A model generated the notes under the pieces. It was not told the origin of the DNA. It did no database searches and saw only the letters and a program-made list of their open reading frames with translations. Below are positions 2,092 through 8,745 of a stretch of DNA of 64,000 nucleotides, piece after piece (the first letter of the stretch is position 1; every line of letters starts with the position of its first letter). Made by a program: the position numbers and the translations under genes. The stretch comes from Gemmatimonadaceae bacterium (GTDB lineage Bacteria; Gemmatimonadota; Gemmatimonadetes; Gemmatimonadales; Gemmatimonadaceae): contig JAIEMN010000045.1 in the NCBI GenBank assembly GCA_019752115.1, positions 1 through 64,000 of the forward strand, given 5' to 3'.

Positions 2092-2367
2092 TCACGGGGT
2101 GCGGAATCCCTCGGCGGCGAGCCGCGCAAGCACGCGCTGCCGCAGGGTCTCCTCCGACAGCGCGGCCGGCGCCGCTGCCTCGTGCACGGCGCGCAGGAAG
2201 GCGCGCGAGAACGAGACATGCTCCGAGCACTCGGCGCACGCGGCGAGATGCTGCTCGACTTCGGCGAAGCGTGGGGCGTCGAGCTCGGCGTCGAGATAAT
2301 CCCAGAGACGGCGAACCGCGGTATCGCAGTCGATGACGGCGACCGGATCAAAGTGGGGCGAGCTCAT
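2092..2367 (-). CDS. Putative zinc-finger anti-sigma factor
   Basis: This 91-residue protein has the zf-HC2 anti-sigma signature: a Cys near residue 14 (DCDTAVRRLWDYLDAELD) and HLAACAEC around residues 40-47, giving the His-X3-Cys-X2-Cys zinc site. No transmembrane helix is present, so it is cytosolic, like redox-sensing ZAS proteins. It overlaps the sigma gene by four bases (ATGA), the usual arrangement of a sigma factor and its antagonist. Inference: it sequesters the upstream ECF sigma factor and may release it when the zinc thiols are oxidised. Confidence 0.85.
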   Translation of the reverse strand: MSSPHFDPVAVIDCDTAVRRLWDYLDAELDAPRFAEVEQHLAACAECSEHVSFSRAFLRAVHEAAAPAALSEETLRQRVLARLAAEGFRTP

Positions 2368-2960
2368 GGGCGGGACTCCTGAGCGGGTGACGAAGGCTGG
2401 CGAACGACGCCGGCGTCGCGCGCATAGTCGAACAACTGTTCCTGCAGGAGTCGCCGCGCCCGAAAGAGTCGCGAGCGCACCGTCCCGACGGGGACGCCCA
2501 GCACCTCGGCGGCCTCGTCATACGCGTAGCCGTCCACATCCACCAACTGCGCGGCGGCACGGAAGGGCGGCGCGAGTCCGTCAATGGCGGCGCGTATCGC
2601 CGGCCCCACGTCGAGCGTGTTCACAAAGCGATCCAAGCCGCTGCGCTGGGCCGCCACGTGCCCCATCACGGCACCCAGCGTCTCCAGTTCGGCGTCGTCA
2701 CCATCGGTGGTGAGCACCAACCGCTGCTCCCGCTGCGCGATGCGCAGCCACGCGTGATGACAGATGGTGAAGAGCCACCGTCGCACATCGGCGCCCGGCT
2801 GAAACGACGCATACCCCCGATAGGCGAGGAGAAAGGTCTCCTGCACGAGATCATCCGCCGCGGTGGCGTCCTTCGTGAGCGAGCGCGCGAAGCGGGCCAC
2901 GTCGCCAAGACAGGCCAACGCCTCCCGCTCAAAGGCGGCATCACGCTCCGAAGCGGTCAT
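2364..2960 (-). CDS. ECF-type RNA polymerase sigma factor
   Basis: The 198 residues show sigma region 2 (about 14-80, with DDLVQETFLLAYRGYASF and the DNA-facing RRWLFTICHHAWL). Sigma region 4 follows (about 128-182, with a helix-turn-helix around EAAEVLGVPVGTVRSRLFRA). The linker is longer than usual and acidic. The gene starts two bases after the stop of the Met-repeat protein gene and overlaps the anti-sigma gene, so the three form one operon. The stimulus is not visible in the sequence; the gene content suggests oxidative or hypochlorite stress. Confidence 0.92.
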   Translation of the reverse strand: MTASERDAAFEREALACLGDVARFARSLTKDATAADDLVQETFLLAYRGYASFQPGADVRRWLFTICHHAWLRIAQREQRLVLTTDGDDAELETLGAVMGHVAAQRSGLDRFVNTLDVGPAIRAAIDGLAPPFRAAAQLVDVDGYAYDEAAEVLGVPVGTVRSRLFRARRLLQEQLFDYARDAGVVRQPSSPAQESRP

Positions 2961-2962
2961 GC

Positions 2963-3238
2963 TCAGCGCTTGACGGTGTCTTTCTTGGCGGGCGCCTTGC
3001 CCATGGCATCCTTCTTCATCTCGTGCTTCATCTCGTGTTTCATGGCGTCGGTCTTTGCCATGCCATCATGCTTCATGGCGTCGCCCTTGGCCATGCCATC
3101 GTGCTTCATGGCATCTTTCTTGGTCATTGCGCCCTTCTTGGCGCTGTCGCCCTTCGCCTTCATGGCATCCTGCGCGTGCAGCGTGGTGGCCGACGCGACG
3201 ACGAGCGCCACGGTGGGGAGCAGCTGGGACATTCGCAT
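2963..3238 (-). CDS. Exported Met/Lys/Asp-repeat protein (MxKDx type)
   Basis: Residues 1-22 form a signal peptide ending in TTLHAQ. The mature ~69 residues are built from imperfect pentads such as KKDAM, KHDGM, KGDAM, KTDAM and KHEM, with ten methionines, many lysines and no cysteine or aromatic residue. This matches the small exported pentapeptide MxKDx repeat family. Known biology: a similar Met-rich periplasmic peptide, MrpX of Azospira suillum, acts as a sacrificial hypochlorite scavenger regenerated by a YedY-type reductase. Here the gene leads an operon with an ECF sigma and an anti-sigma, divergent from a YedY-like enzyme, so the same role is a good inference. Confidence 0.85.
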   Translation of the reverse strand: MRMSQLLPTVALVVASATTLHAQDAMKAKGDSAKKGAMTKKDAMKHDGMAKGDAMKHDGMAKTDAMKHEMKHEMKKDAMGKAPAKKDTVKR

Positions 3239-3258
3239 GGGTCGAGTTCCGGTTGGGG

Positions 3259-4137
3259 TTGAGCCGGTCGATCAACCGGCGCAACACAGGTAGACCGACG
3301 CCTTCCGGGAAGTTCCCGGCGCCCGCGGGAGGGGCGAACGGGAACTGCCATGCGGGGTCGCGTCTACGTGAGCGCACGACCACGCCCTCGCCTCGTCATC
3401 ACCCAATCGCCCGCGCGACCCACTGGATCTCCGCGGTTGCCGTGCTCGTCATGGCGGCATCCGGGCTCCGGATCTTCAATGCGTCGCCCGCCTTCGCTCC
3501 CAAAGGCAGCGCGCCGTGGGCGCTCTGGCCCTTTGAGGGGATGCGTGCGCCTGATGCCATCACCATTGGCGGATGGCTGGGCGGCGCCCGCCACTGGCAC
3601 TTTGCCATGATGTGGGTGCTCGGTCTCAATGGCCTCGTATACCTCGCGCATCTGTATCAGCGTGGCCGTTGGCGGACCATTGTCCCCCGGGTGTCGCGAT
3701 GGCGGGATGCGCTCGAGATGGCGCGCTTCTATCTCTTCCTGCGCCGCGATCATCCGGTCCAGGGGAAGCACAATGCGCTGCAGCAGTACGCGTATACGAC
3801 CATGCTGGTGTGTGCGGCGGTGCTGATCATCTCCGGGCTCGCCATCTGGAAGCCGGTGAGCCTCGGCTGGCTCACCTCGCTGCTGGGGGGCTACGCCTGG
3901 GCGCGCTGGTGGCATTTCAGCGCGATGCTGCTCCTCGGGCTGCTCGTGGTCGTGCACGTGTTCATGGTCTTTACGGTGGACCCCTACGCGCTGCGGGCCA
4001 TGACGTCGGGCGGGTACGACGCCGAGCGGTGGTCGCCGGAAGCGCGCAATGCGCGGCCGCTGCTGCATCTGTTGCCGCGCCGCGCGCACGTGTCGGCACC
4101 CATCACAGAGGCGCCGGCGCCAACGGAGGTCGCATGA
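3259..4137 (+). CDS. Cytochrome b561-type membrane protein
   Basis: The conserved part begins with HHPIARATHW, the heme-binding opening of the bacterial cytochrome b561/Ni-hydrogenase b family. It continues with about four helices, including HWHFAMMWVLGLNGL and WWHFSAMLLLGLLVVVHVF, whose histidines can ligate two hemes. The start is unresolved: no in-frame ATG precedes HHPIARATHW. TTG at 3253 or 3259 is possible, GTG at 3442 would lose the first heme motif, and a start-region frameshift cannot be excluded. The stop overlaps the start of the molybdoenzyme gene (ATGA), so the two are coupled. Likely role: electron donor to that periplasmic enzyme. Confidence 0.8.
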   Translation: MSRSINRRNTGRPTPSGKFPAPAGGANGNCHAGSRLRERTTTPSPRHHPIARATHWISAVAVLVMAASGLRIFNASPAFAPKGSAPWALWPFEGMRAPDAITIGGWLGGARHWHFAMMWVLGLNGLVYLAHLYQRGRWRTIVPRVSRWRDALEMARFYLFLRRDHPVQGKHNALQQYAYTTMLVCAAVLIISGLAIWKPVSLGWLTSLLGGYAWARWWHFSAMLLLGLLVVVHVFMVFTVDPYALRAMTSGGYDAERWSPEARNARPLLHLLPRRAHVSAPITEAPAPTEVA

Positions 4138-4931
4138 ACCGGCATGGGCTCGCGACGTTGCGCCGGATCATCACGACCCGCGTGGAAACGACCGCCGAGT
4201 CGCTGCAGGCACGCGGGGCACTCGATCGCCGCGCGTTCGTACGGCTCATGAGCCTCGGGGTGGCGGCGCCGCTGGTGGCCGCCTGCAGCGCCCCCGGCAG
4301 CGATCAGGTGGATCGCGTGCTCAAGACCGTCGGCCAGGGGAACGAGCGCCTGGAGCGTTGGCTGCTGCGTCAGGCCAATCGAACCGATCGCGTCCCGCGC
4401 GGCGTGATGGTGGCCGGTGACGCGTTCCCGTCCTACTTCATATCAGACCAGGTGCCGACCTGGAATGCGATGATGCGCGGTGCGTGGACGCTCGAGGTCA
4501 CCGGTGCGGTGAAGACCCCGCTGCGCCTCACGTACGACCAGGTGCGCGGCATGGCCACGCAAACGCAGCGCGTGCATCACTACTGCGTGGAAGGGTGGAG
4601 CGCGGCGGTGGAGTTCCAGGGAGTTCCGTTTCGCACGCTCGCCGCGCTCGCACAGCCCACGGCCGATGCCGGGTATGTGGACTTCGCCTCATTCGACAGC
4701 GACTACCACGAGAGCTGGGATGTGGAGAGTGCGATGCATCCCCAGACGCTCGTGGTGGTCGCGAAAGACGGAAAGGCGCTCTCACCGGCCTACGGGGCGC
4801 CGGCGCGCATTCACTCCCCCATCAAGCTCGGCTACAAGAACACCAAGTACCTGACGCGCATCACCTTCATGCCCGCTCCCAATGGCGGGTATTGGAGCGA
4901 CGAGGGGTATGAGTGGTTCGGCGGGACCTGA
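4134..4931 (+). CDS. YedY/sulfite-oxidase-fold molybdopterin enzyme
   Basis: The 265-residue protein has a twin-arginine-like export signal (RRAFVRLMSLGVAAPLVAAC, about residues 37-56) that also offers a lipobox. A molybdopterin-binding sulfite-oxidase-fold domain follows. VHHYCVEGWS contains the conserved cysteine that ligates molybdenum, and GAPARIHSPIKLGYKNTKY matches the family's C-terminal part. It is translationally coupled to the cytochrome b, which mirrors the MsrP/MsrQ (YedY/YedZ) pairing, although MsrQ is a different heme protein. Inference: a periplasmic reductase, perhaps for methionine sulfoxide in the Met-rich protein encoded divergently. Confidence 0.87.
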   Translation: MNRHGLATLRRIITTRVETTAESLQARGALDRRAFVRLMSLGVAAPLVAACSAPGSDQVDRVLKTVGQGNERLERWLLRQANRTDRVPRGVMVAGDAFPSYFISDQVPTWNAMMRGAWTLEVTGAVKTPLRLTYDQVRGMATQTQRVHHYCVEGWSAAVEFQGVPFRTLAALAQPTADAGYVDFASFDSDYHESWDVESAMHPQTLVVVAKDGKALSPAYGAPARIHSPIKLGYKNTKYLTRITFMPAPNGGYWSDEGYEWFGGT

Positions 4932-5917: not shown

Positions 5918-6451
5918 TCAGCGTGAGCGGGTGGGTGACGCGTCGGCCGCGGGAGGGGTCGCGTCTGGGGAGGTGGTCAACTGCTGCGCCGCCGCGTGAA
6001 TGGCGGCGCGAATGCGCGGATACGATCCGCAGCGACACAGGTTGCCCTGCATCGCACTGTCAATATCGCTGTCGGACGGCGATCGGTTACTGACCAGGAG
6101 CGCCACGGCGGCCATGACCTGCCCGGACTGGCAGTAGCCGCACTGCGCGACGTCCTGCGCGACCCAAGCGTCCTGCACCGCGCGGGCTACCGTCACGGCG
6201 CTGCCTTCGCCGGTGACGCCTTCGATGGTCGTGACCGCTCGCGCACCGACCGCACCAACGGGGGTGATGCAGGCGCGCGTCGGGATGCCGTCGAGATGCA
6301 CCGTACACGCTCCGCAGAGCGCCATGCCGCACCCGAACTTGGTGCCGGTGAGCTGAAGCGTTTCCCGCAGAACCCAGAGGAGCGGGGTCTCGGGTGCCAC
6401 GTTCAGCGCGCGCGAGGCGCCGTTCACCTGCAGCGTGATGCTTTCGCTCAT
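5918..6451 (-). CDS. 2Fe-2S subunit of a molybdenum hydroxylase (IorA-like)
   Basis: The protein has 177 residues. The plant-type ferredoxin cluster is GCGMALCGACTVHLDG (around residues 40-55), and the second, helical 2Fe-2S domain has CGYCQSGQVM and GNLCRCGSYPRI. Together these are the standard electron-transfer subunit of xanthine dehydrogenase/isoquinoline oxidoreductase enzymes. The start overlaps the stop of the large-subunit gene (ATGA). It has no export signal, so it probably crosses the membrane with its Tat-bearing partner, as known for IorAB-type enzymes. Confidence 0.93.
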   Translation of the reverse strand: MSESITLQVNGASRALNVAPETPLLWVLRETLQLTGTKFGCGMALCGACTVHLDGIPTRACITPVGAVGARAVTTIEGVTGEGSAVTVARAVQDAWVAQDVAQCGYCQSGQVMAAVALLVSNRSPSDSDIDSAMQGNLCRCGSYPRIRAAIHAAAQQLTTSPDATPPAADASPTRSR

Positions 6452-8745
6452 GGCGCCCGCCCCACGAGCTGCCCGCTTGGCACGCGCAGCGGCAGCGAGC
6501 GCAGGCGCGTGCCGGTGAGCACGAAGAGCGCGTTGGCGACGGCCGGCGCGATGGGCGGCAACCCCGGCTCGCCCACCCCGGTGGGGGGCGCACTGCTCGG
6601 CATGATGATCGTGTCGATGATGGGCGTGTCGGCGATGCGCAGCGGCTGCAGCGTATCGAAGTTGCCTTCGCGCACGCGCCCCTGGTCAATGGTGATGGCG
6701 CCGCCGAGGGCGGCCGAGAGGCCGAAGATGATCCCGCTCTCCATCTGTTGCCGGATCCCGTTGGGATTCACCGCGAGCCCACAGTCCACGGCACAGGTGA
6801 CGCGATGCACGCGAATGCGTTCGTTCTCGCCGAGTGAGACTTCGGCGATCTGTGCGACCGTGGTCCCGAAGGCCATGTGGAGCGCGAGCCCGCGCGCGCG
6901 CGGGCGACCGTCTTCGCCTGCGGCCAGTGGCGTGCCCCAGCCCGCGCGCTCGGCCACCGCCTTGAGCACCGCCGTGGCGCGCGGATGCCTGGTGAGCAGC
7001 GACAACCGGAAGGCCAGCGGATCCTGCATGGTCGCGGCGGCAAGTTCGTCGATGAACGACTCGAAAAAGAACGCCTGATGCGAATGCCCGACGGCGCGCC
7101 ACGATCCGACGGGCACGGGAAACGCACAGTCGGCGTGCGAGGCGCGCAGGGCGGGGAACTCGTACGGCTGATCCCACGTGCCTTCGCTGGTGGTACGATC
7201 GGGGCCGTTCTCGGTCCAGATGAGCCGCACGCGTCGGCTCAGCTCGCGGAACGGCGCCTGCCCCGCCGAATGCGCCACGACGCCGGTGATGGCGCCCGCG
7301 GCATTGATGCCGGCACGCAGTCGTGCGACGGTGGCCGGGCGATAGGGCGCGTGCCGCGTATCGTCTTCGCGGGCATAGAGGAGCTGCACCGGCGTGCCAG
7401 GCACTGCCTTCGCAATGGCGGTGCATTGCGCGATCACGTCCACTTCCAGGCGCCGACCGAAGGCGCCGCCCAGCAGCTGCTGATGCAGCGTGACCTGCTC
7501 TTCGCTCACGCCGGCGATGCGCGCGAGCGCCTTCACGGCAAAGGTGGGCACCTGGGTGCCGACCCAGCACTCGACGGCATCGGCGGTGACGCGCACCGTG
7601 GCGTTCATCGGCTCCATCGGCGCGTGCGCCAGATACGGCGCGTCGTAGACGACATCTACCACGCGATCGGCAGCGGCCAGCGCGCCCATCGCATCGCCAC
7701 TGCTGCGCATGGGGAGGCCGTCGTCGGTGAGCGCCTGCGATCGCAGCGTTTCCATCAGGCCGGGTGTGGACAGCGCACCGGCGGGGCTCAGGCTCCATTG
7801 CACGTTGAGCGCGGCGACGCCCTGACGCGCCTGCCACCACCCATCGGCCACCACGGCGACGGCGGGCGGATCGCCGCAGTCGCTGCCCGGCAATGCGACC
7901 ACGGCGCGCACGCCGGGTTTGGCCATGGCTGCTGCCTGGTCGTAGCGCAGCGGCGTACTGCCGAATGCCGGAGGCATGGCGACGGCCGCGTACTTGAGGC
8001 CGGGGACGCGCACGTCGATGCCGAACGTCGCCGCTCCGGTGACCTTGTCGCGCCCTTCCAGCCGCGGCCGGTCCTTCCCGATGAGGGTGAAGGCGCCGGG
8101 CGCCTTGAGGGTGACGTCGGCCGGCTTCACCGCGGCGGCCTCGGTGACGAGTTCGCCAAAGCGCAGGGTGCCCTTGGCGCTCGTGATGACGCCGTTGGCC
8201 ACCGTGCACGCCGCGGGCGCCACGTTCCATCGCTGCGCCGCCACCTGCACCAGTGCGGTGCGCGCCGTGGCGCCGGCGACGCGCGCGATCTCCCAGCAAT
8301 CGCGCACACTGCTCGACCCACCGGTCATCATGACGCCGGCCTCGCGGATGGTCTTCGCGGTCAGCCAGCGCAGCGCACGGACTCCGGCGTTGTCATCGAG
8401 GTCCGGGTGGAAGGGCAAGCCATCCACGATGGCCGCGACGTTGTTGTAGATCGCATCCACCGGGCTGTAGCGGACGCTCACCTTGGCCCAGTCGCACCCC
8501 AGCTCTTCGGCGATGAGCATGGCGAGCGCGGTGTGGACCCCCTGTCCCATCTCCGCTTTGGGCGCGATGATGGTGACGGTGTCGTCGGGGGCAATGGCGA
8601 GCCAGCCATTGAGGGCGATCGCGCCGGCGGGGAGCGCCGGCGTGGCCGATCCGCGCAGCCGCTGCCGCGGCGGCACCAGGGACCATCCCAGAAAGAGGGC
8701 ACTGCCGGCCCCGAGCCCTGCCAGCAGGAAGGTCCGCCGTCTCAT
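6448..8745 (-). CDS. Molybdopterin-binding large subunit (IorB-like aldehyde/xanthine oxidase family)
   Basis: The 765-residue protein begins with a Tat-type signal (MRRRTFLLAGLGAGSALFLG). It carries the aldehyde oxidase/xanthine dehydrogenase domains typical of the Tat-exported IorB group. Landmarks are KAEMGQGVHTALAMLIAEEL early on, then LLGGAFGRRLEVD, GSWRAVGHSHQAFFFESFID, and VTCAVDCGLAVNPNGI with GVGEPGLPPIAPAVANALF near the end. It oxidises an unknown aldehyde or N-heterocycle. The paired 2Fe-2S subunit follows, and no FAD subunit is nearby, as is usual for this group. A TATCTT hexamer six bases before the ATG suggests a leaderless transcript. Confidence 0.93.
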   Translation of the reverse strand: MRRRTFLLAGLGAGSALFLGWSLVPPRQRLRGSATPALPAGAIALNGWLAIAPDDTVTIIAPKAEMGQGVHTALAMLIAEELGCDWAKVSVRYSPVDAIYNNVAAIVDGLPFHPDLDDNAGVRALRWLTAKTIREAGVMMTGGSSSVRDCWEIARVAGATARTALVQVAAQRWNVAPAACTVANGVITSAKGTLRFGELVTEAAAVKPADVTLKAPGAFTLIGKDRPRLEGRDKVTGAATFGIDVRVPGLKYAAVAMPPAFGSTPLRYDQAAAMAKPGVRAVVALPGSDCGDPPAVAVVADGWWQARQGVAALNVQWSLSPAGALSTPGLMETLRSQALTDDGLPMRSSGDAMGALAAADRVVDVVYDAPYLAHAPMEPMNATVRVTADAVECWVGTQVPTFAVKALARIAGVSEEQVTLHQQLLGGAFGRRLEVDVIAQCTAIAKAVPGTPVQLLYAREDDTRHAPYRPATVARLRAGINAAGAITGVVAHSAGQAPFRELSRRVRLIWTENGPDRTTSEGTWDQPYEFPALRASHADCAFPVPVGSWRAVGHSHQAFFFESFIDELAAATMQDPLAFRLSLLTRHPRATAVLKAVAERAGWGTPLAAGEDGRPRARGLALHMAFGTTVAQIAEVSLGENERIRVHRVTCAVDCGLAVNPNGIRQQMESGIIFGLSAALGGAITIDQGRVREGNFDTLQPLRIADTPIIDTIIMPSSAPPTGVGEPGLPPIAPAVANALFVLTGTRLRSLPLRVPSGQLVGRAP

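Follow-up and report, generated by a model that had tools for sequence, protein, structure and literature searches.

In Azospira suillum, the SigF/NrsF-YedY1/YedZ1/MrpX system combines a sigma-controlled, exported methionine-rich peptide with a YedY-type enzyme and its membrane cytochrome and, as far as the cited accounts cover it, scavenges hypochlorite (PMC8315932, PMC8550376). In Brucella melitensis, BcrS/AbcS, an extracytoplasmic function (ECF) sigma factor with its anti-sigma factor, is encoded beside the divergent operon bcrXQP, with matching promoters on both; this operon, which is induced by hypochlorous acid (HOCl), encodes an MsrP-like enzyme and a methionine-rich peptide, BcrX, that bears the annotation MXKDX repeat protein and is described as an MrpX homolog (PMC8315932). 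Uropathogenic Escherichia coli carries c3566-c3567-c3568, encoding a cytochrome b, an MsrP-like enzyme and a methionine-rich peptide under the control of C3564/C3565, and mutants are peroxide-sensitive (PMC8550376), while Neisseria meningitidis sigmaE with its zinc anti-sigma factor MseR controls MsrA/MsrB (PMC2893595). Here we describe a locus of a Gemmatimonadaceae bacterium at positions 2092-4931 of a 64,000-nucleotide (nt) stretch (the window; assembly GCA_019752115.1, contig JAIEMN010000045.1), taken from a draft genome of 5.17 Mb in 83 contigs. We read this locus, with moderate confidence, as an oxidant-switched methionine-repair system of the cell envelope in which an exported Met/Lys/Asp-repeat peptide (MxKDx) would serve as a re-reducible sink. 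Because of the Brucella, uropathogenic E. coli and Neisseria parallels, the overall kind of system is already known; what is new is that a cassette of a cytochrome (CytB), a molybdopterin enzyme (MoCo) and MxKDx is under SigR/RsrA-type control.

The locus consists of five genes, three on the minus strand, transcribed in the order MxKDx, ECF sigma, zinc anti-sigma, and two, CytB followed by MoCo, running divergently on the plus strand (Table 1). All five had been proposed in the original prediction, made from the DNA letters, and domain and profile searches confirmed their families. The stop codon of the peptide gene lies 2 nt ahead of the sigma start.

Table 1. Genes and predicted promoters of the locus, in window coordinates.
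Feature	Position	Strand	Evidence
Soluble zinc anti-sigma factor, RsrA-like, 91 aa	2092..2367	-	PF13490 2.4e-8; TIGR03988; PDB 5frf
ECF sigma factor, SigR/SigH-like, 198 aa	2364..2960	-	PF04542 + PF08281; TIGR02947; PDB SigH
Exported Met/Lys/Asp-repeat peptide (MxKDx), first gene of the sigma operon	2963..3238	-	TIGR02953
ECF-type promoter GGGAACT-N15-GTCTAC, predicted to drive MxKDx-sigma-anti-sigma	3290..3317	-	motif match
Identical promoter, predicted to drive CytB-MoCo	3340..3367	+	motif match
Cytochrome b561-type membrane protein CytB, ACG at the start-codon position	3376..4137	+	PF01292 1.2e-26
YedY/MsrP-fold molybdopterin enzyme MoCo, twin-arginine translocation (TAT)-like and lipobox signal	4134..4931	+	PF00174 3.7e-28

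Two identical ECF-type promoters lie divergently between the operons, and they are the sole exact matches to their motif in the whole genome (spacers of 14-16 allowed; reversed control, 0). Upon shuffling the window 100 times, we obtained a mean of 0.34 motif matches with up to 2 mismatches, versus the 4 found. As a matching promoter stands ahead of MxKDx-sigma-anti-sigma, autoregulation is likely. A looser motif, GGAACY-N15-GTCTA, yielded 20 matches in nine genomes of the genus, 14 at the locus and 6 off-locus; the studied genome holds three, namely the two at the locus and one located 25 nt upstream of an exported MsrA. This MsrA gene, on contig C17, is followed by a gene for a SoxC-like sulfite dehydrogenase (L190 3998-6028 for the pair). 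In congeners, the looser motif was found upstream of msrB-msrA (G331), of an AhpC/TSA-family gene (G039 and G074) and, in G074, of a full-length DsbD as well. At L191 3700-7896, a divergent motif pair separates a full-length DsbD from an AhpC/TSA-family gene, with a second TlpA-like gene following, and at L194 5467-5523, in one congener, the same motif lies ~30 nt upstream of rlmN.

The weight of the off-locus matches comes from the genes behind them and from their spacing, not from their number. The motif was kept in 7/7 congeners examined, and in every one the CytB ATG lies exactly 9 nt past GTCTA, which suggests, from the spacing, that CytB messages may be leaderless. The same 9-nt distance to the ATG recurs at msrB of G331, making a chance match there unlikely, and at the DsbD-like gene of L154; upstream of the DsbD-like gene, too, the promoter is kept in congeners. 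Outside the main clade, ECF-linked loci (L050-L054, L105, L155, L156) did not yield the motif, which is thus specific to that clade. An inverted repeat, GCCGGT-TGATCG-ACCGGC, occupies window positions 3252-3280, in what would be the 5' leader of the MxKDx transcript.

The regulatory pair resembles SigR/RsrA. The sigma factor had SigR/SigH-type proteins as its nearest relatives among ECF models and structures, with TIGR02947 as the best model (2.1e-34; 118.9 bits, below the equivalog cut-off of 251.55) and SigH as the top PDB match (1.5e-27). The anti-sigma factor belongs to zf-HC2; its best NCBIfam model is TIGR03988 RsrA (E 2.4e-12; 46.8 bits, below the equivalog cut-off of 62.5), and its best PDB match, 5frf RsrA, is weak (E 0.017). 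It shows the RsrA-type zinc-ligand pattern (Cys...His-x3-Cys-x2-Cys), with C14, H40, C44 and C47 at the same spacing as C11, H37, C41 and C44 of RsrA (PMC2893595). Because both proteins score under their equivalog cut-offs, 'SigR/RsrA-like' is as far as the evidence carries. An ECF sigma with a soluble zinc anti-sigma and the RsrA Cys/His spacing are shared with Neisseria sigmaE/MseR and Streptomyces SigR/RsrA, whereas the regulon of the former, in those passages of the Neisseria paper that describe it, is given without an MxKDx peptide, a cytochrome b561 or a YedY-type enzyme (PMC2893595). The pair is not of the SigF/NrsF (ECF16) kind, as its anti-sigma is a soluble zf-HC2 protein and its promoter differs from GTAAC...CGAA with a membrane NrsF. 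Azospira, in the accounts cited, has a membrane NrsF, and Brucella an ECF16 sigma, an NrsF-family anti-sigma with six transmembrane segments and the promoter (T/C)GTAAC-N17-CGAA (PMC8315932).

CytB shares 46-82% identity with its relatives and has four conserved histidines, H14, H73, H178 and H192 (numbering of alignment A2). It falls into PF01292 and lacks the PF01794 domain of MsrQ, unlike the MsrQ/YedZ partner in the Azospira accounts and BcrQ, an MsrQ homolog, in Brucella (PMC8315932). PF01794 occurs once in the genome, on contig C3, adjoining another PF00174 gene in what looks like a canonical MsrPQ pair. We therefore rejected CytB-MoCo as the sole methionine-repair reductase of this organism and regard it as an additional system.

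For MoCo, the top PDB match by sequence was 1xdq, E. coli YedY/MsrP (5.5e-20), which was also the top Foldseek chain (1.1e-16) for an AlphaFold2 model with a pLDDT (predicted local distance difference test) of 81. The positions C151, E153, G154 and W155 were invariant in 41 sequences, the core reading CVEGW save for one CIEGW; it parallels CVEAW of MsrP, with the MsrP-type Cys-x-Glu and not the C-(A/S)-G-N of sulfite oxidases. Cys151 in this motif is proposed as the Mo ligand. As it falls short of the equivalog cut-off for MsrP, MoCo is best called a YedY-fold relative and not a formal MsrP.

The peptide itself carries a signal peptide and Met-x-Lys-Asp-x repeats, directly visible in its translation, and scores barely over the threshold for TIGR02953, 'pentapeptide MXKDX repeat protein' (41.2 bits, cut-off 41), which places it in the MXKDX family. 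The mature form of 68 residues contains 10 Met, 18 Lys, 9 Asp, 4 His and no Cys, and includes MKHDG/MKHEM repeats. Since Met and His bind soft metals, such a peptide could instead be mainly a copper or silver buffer and the sigma regulon a metal-stress response, and in Caulobacter cadmium and chromate elicit a response from SigF, which belongs to the SigF/NrsF kind known elsewhere to control such peptides (PMC3511200). However, many Proteobacterial MxKDx peptides lack His, the sole CopL match had an E of 0.58, the regulon motif leads to Msr and thiol-redox genes, and no copper or metal transport gene was recognized adjoining the loci analyzed, where such genes were not systematically searched for; we consider a metal-buffering role unlikely.

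Similar cassettes are common in Proteobacteria. A genome scan with the MoCo alignment returned 80 loci, and we examined the 41 Proteobacterial ones (L245-L285), picked by MoCo alone. These have homologous CytB and MoCo, and in 35/41 an MxKDx peptide follows directly behind MoCo; as regulators, 7 loci have a divergent SigF-like ECF with NrsF, and 11 have a two-component system. The Brucella peptide likewise differs from ours in its place, being encoded in the repair operon instead of the sigma operon (PMC8315932). By gene order and description alone, c3566-c3567-c3568 of uropathogenic E. coli is probably the same cassette, with the differences that its regulator is a two-component system, that the peptide comes after the molybdoenzyme and that it is co-transcribed with hemolysin genes (PMC8550376). 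The original prediction had taken the locus for an independent version built from different parts, which these comparisons do not support: the MxKDx cassette is standard in Proteobacteria, the MrpX homolog BcrX is itself annotated as MXKDX (PMC8315932), leaving MxKDx no part distinct from MrpX, and a zinc anti-sigma over Msr is known from Neisseria. While the combination of a cytochrome b561, a YedY-fold enzyme and MxKDx is thus not unusual, the SigR/RsrA-type regulator placed upon it really differs.

Other loci in the phylum showed variations on the peptide: MxKDx repeats joined to the N-terminus of a TlpA-like thioredoxin whose gene follows a DsbD-like one and adjoins an ECF sigma/zinc anti-sigma pair (L105 5294-6600); repeats on either side of a DM13 domain, with CytB-MoCo no more than 2 kb away (L164); MxKDx-type repeats with a DM13 domain adjoining a thioredoxin-MsrA-MsrB fusion gene (L104 5980-8109); and a 34-Met protein after MoCo (L089).

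CytB-MoCo is widespread in the phylum: MoCo matches occurred in 79/249 genomes, and CytB and MoCo were both present in 65 of the loci surveyed. Within the genus, sigma orthologs (E < 1e-50) were present in 13/30 genomes, 11 of them beside CytB-MoCo, one at a contig end and one in a genome without any MoCo match (G068). The orientation of the locus varies: genus members have it divergent or co-directional, and convergent forms occur in some other genera. In the usual divergent form, CytB-MoCo faces an operon of DsbD-like, thioredoxin, sigma and anti-sigma genes (L041, L042, L150, L152, L154), and at L050 all six genes form a single run, with CytB-MoCo last; two congeners (L043, L044) have neither MxKDx nor DsbD-thioredoxin. 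The expected linkage in relatives thus held for sigma, anti-sigma, CytB and MoCo, which are kept together across the genus, but not for MxKDx, which had no ortholog at the equivalent position in congeners and, among the genus set, occupies it solely in the studied genome. TIGR02953 matches in G055 and G079 were discarded because the follow-up filter left no reading frame of the MxKDx type.

In a concatenated tree, the window groups with L041 and L150 (support 0.945), a placement left unresolved by the sigma tree alone, and hence MxKDx most simply replaced DsbD-thioredoxin in this lineage. From gene position, this apparent exchange of partners, MxKDx for the DsbD-like protein and thioredoxin of congeners, is also new here, and it suggests that either could supply periplasmic oxidant buffering or repair to one regulon. 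Going further, one SigR/RsrA-type regulon may use the methionine-rich peptide and the DsbD-thioredoxin relay interchangeably as outputs: the peptide, which CytB-MoCo would recharge with electrons of the quinol pool, would have replaced the thiol relay as the periplasmic electron and oxidant buffer, with fusions such as MxKDx-thioredoxin as intermediates; we put this forward as a possible but rather doubtful scenario.

We envisage that, once its zinc-binding thiols are oxidized, the RsrA-like anti-sigma would release the SigR-like sigma factor, which would then act on both divergent operons and, via the matching motif, on the exported MsrA encoded elsewhere. CytB would deliver electrons from the quinol pool to the YedY-fold MoCo, which in turn would reduce methionine sulfoxide both in proteins of the envelope and in the MxKDx peptide, and the latter may thereby soak up hypochlorite or peroxide as a sacrificial sink that can be reduced again. 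Sigma-controlled methionine repair in the envelope, as predicted earlier, gains support from the shared divergent promoters, from the motif before msrA and msrB-msrA, and from the conserved linkage of the genes for the sigma, the anti-sigma, the cytochrome and the molybdoenzyme. Several observations weigh against it. In the nine genomes, the 6 off-locus motif matches are not more numerous than the 9 of the reversed control, and in G269 the looser motif precedes rlmN, with no evident link. Neisseria MseR gave no response to the oxidants tested (PMC2893595). MoCo reached 90 bits with the MsrP model NF003767, versus an equivalog cut-off of 207, and its VIA-align Z was equal for YedY and for sulfite dehydrogenases, so that its substrate is not proven. 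Finally, CytB lacks its ATG, so that, barring a sequencing error at this base, its expression here is doubtful.

The equal Z and the fold common to both enzyme types, together with the SoxC-like gene behind the motif-bearing MsrA gene, would fit CytB-MoCo acting as a dehydrogenase on sulfite or some other small sulfur compound, with the electrons passing into the quinone pool and the link to methionine repair being one of co-regulation only. We find this improbable, because YedY is the top match by both Foldseek and sequence, the MoCo core CVEGW is like CVEAW of MsrP whereas the SoxC-like protein on C17 reads CSGNGR, MoCo matches PF00174 only and not the Mo-co dimerization domain that is present in the SoxC-like protein, and MxKDx adjoins MoCo in Proteobacteria. 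A second, unrelated-looking molybdenum-enzyme pair, a 2Fe-2S subunit and a large xanthine-dehydrogenase-like subunit as judged by eye from the translations, lies at window positions 5918-8745.

The functional claim is weakest at the start of CytB, which like the promoter pair had escaped the original prediction. An ACG occupies positions 3376-3378, where 7/7 relatives have ATG, and there is no in-frame ATG nearby; this means a wrong base, a very weak start or a poorly made CytB. Together with the absence of MxKDx from this position in all other congeners of the set, it could signify a decaying locus that lost the CytB start and DsbD-thioredoxin, no longer makes CytB-MoCo and retains MxKDx as a leftover or neutral insertion. 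Yet CytB and MoCo are otherwise uninterrupted with their conserved positions kept, the two promoters are identical and undamaged, MxKDx retains its reading frame, its signal peptide and its close junction with the sigma gene, and a lone C for T may stem from a sequencing error or still work as a weak start. We give decay little credence.

Overall, the locus extends regulated envelope methionine scavenging and repair from Proteobacteria to Gemmatimonadota, where the sensor is of another type, and indicates that a single effector cassette (CytB-MoCo plus MxKDx) has come to be governed by three or more kinds of regulator. The promoter motif provides a short list of candidate regulon genes, and the swap between DsbD-thioredoxin and a methionine-rich peptide at one position yields a testable prediction on the role of the poorly understood MXKDX peptides.

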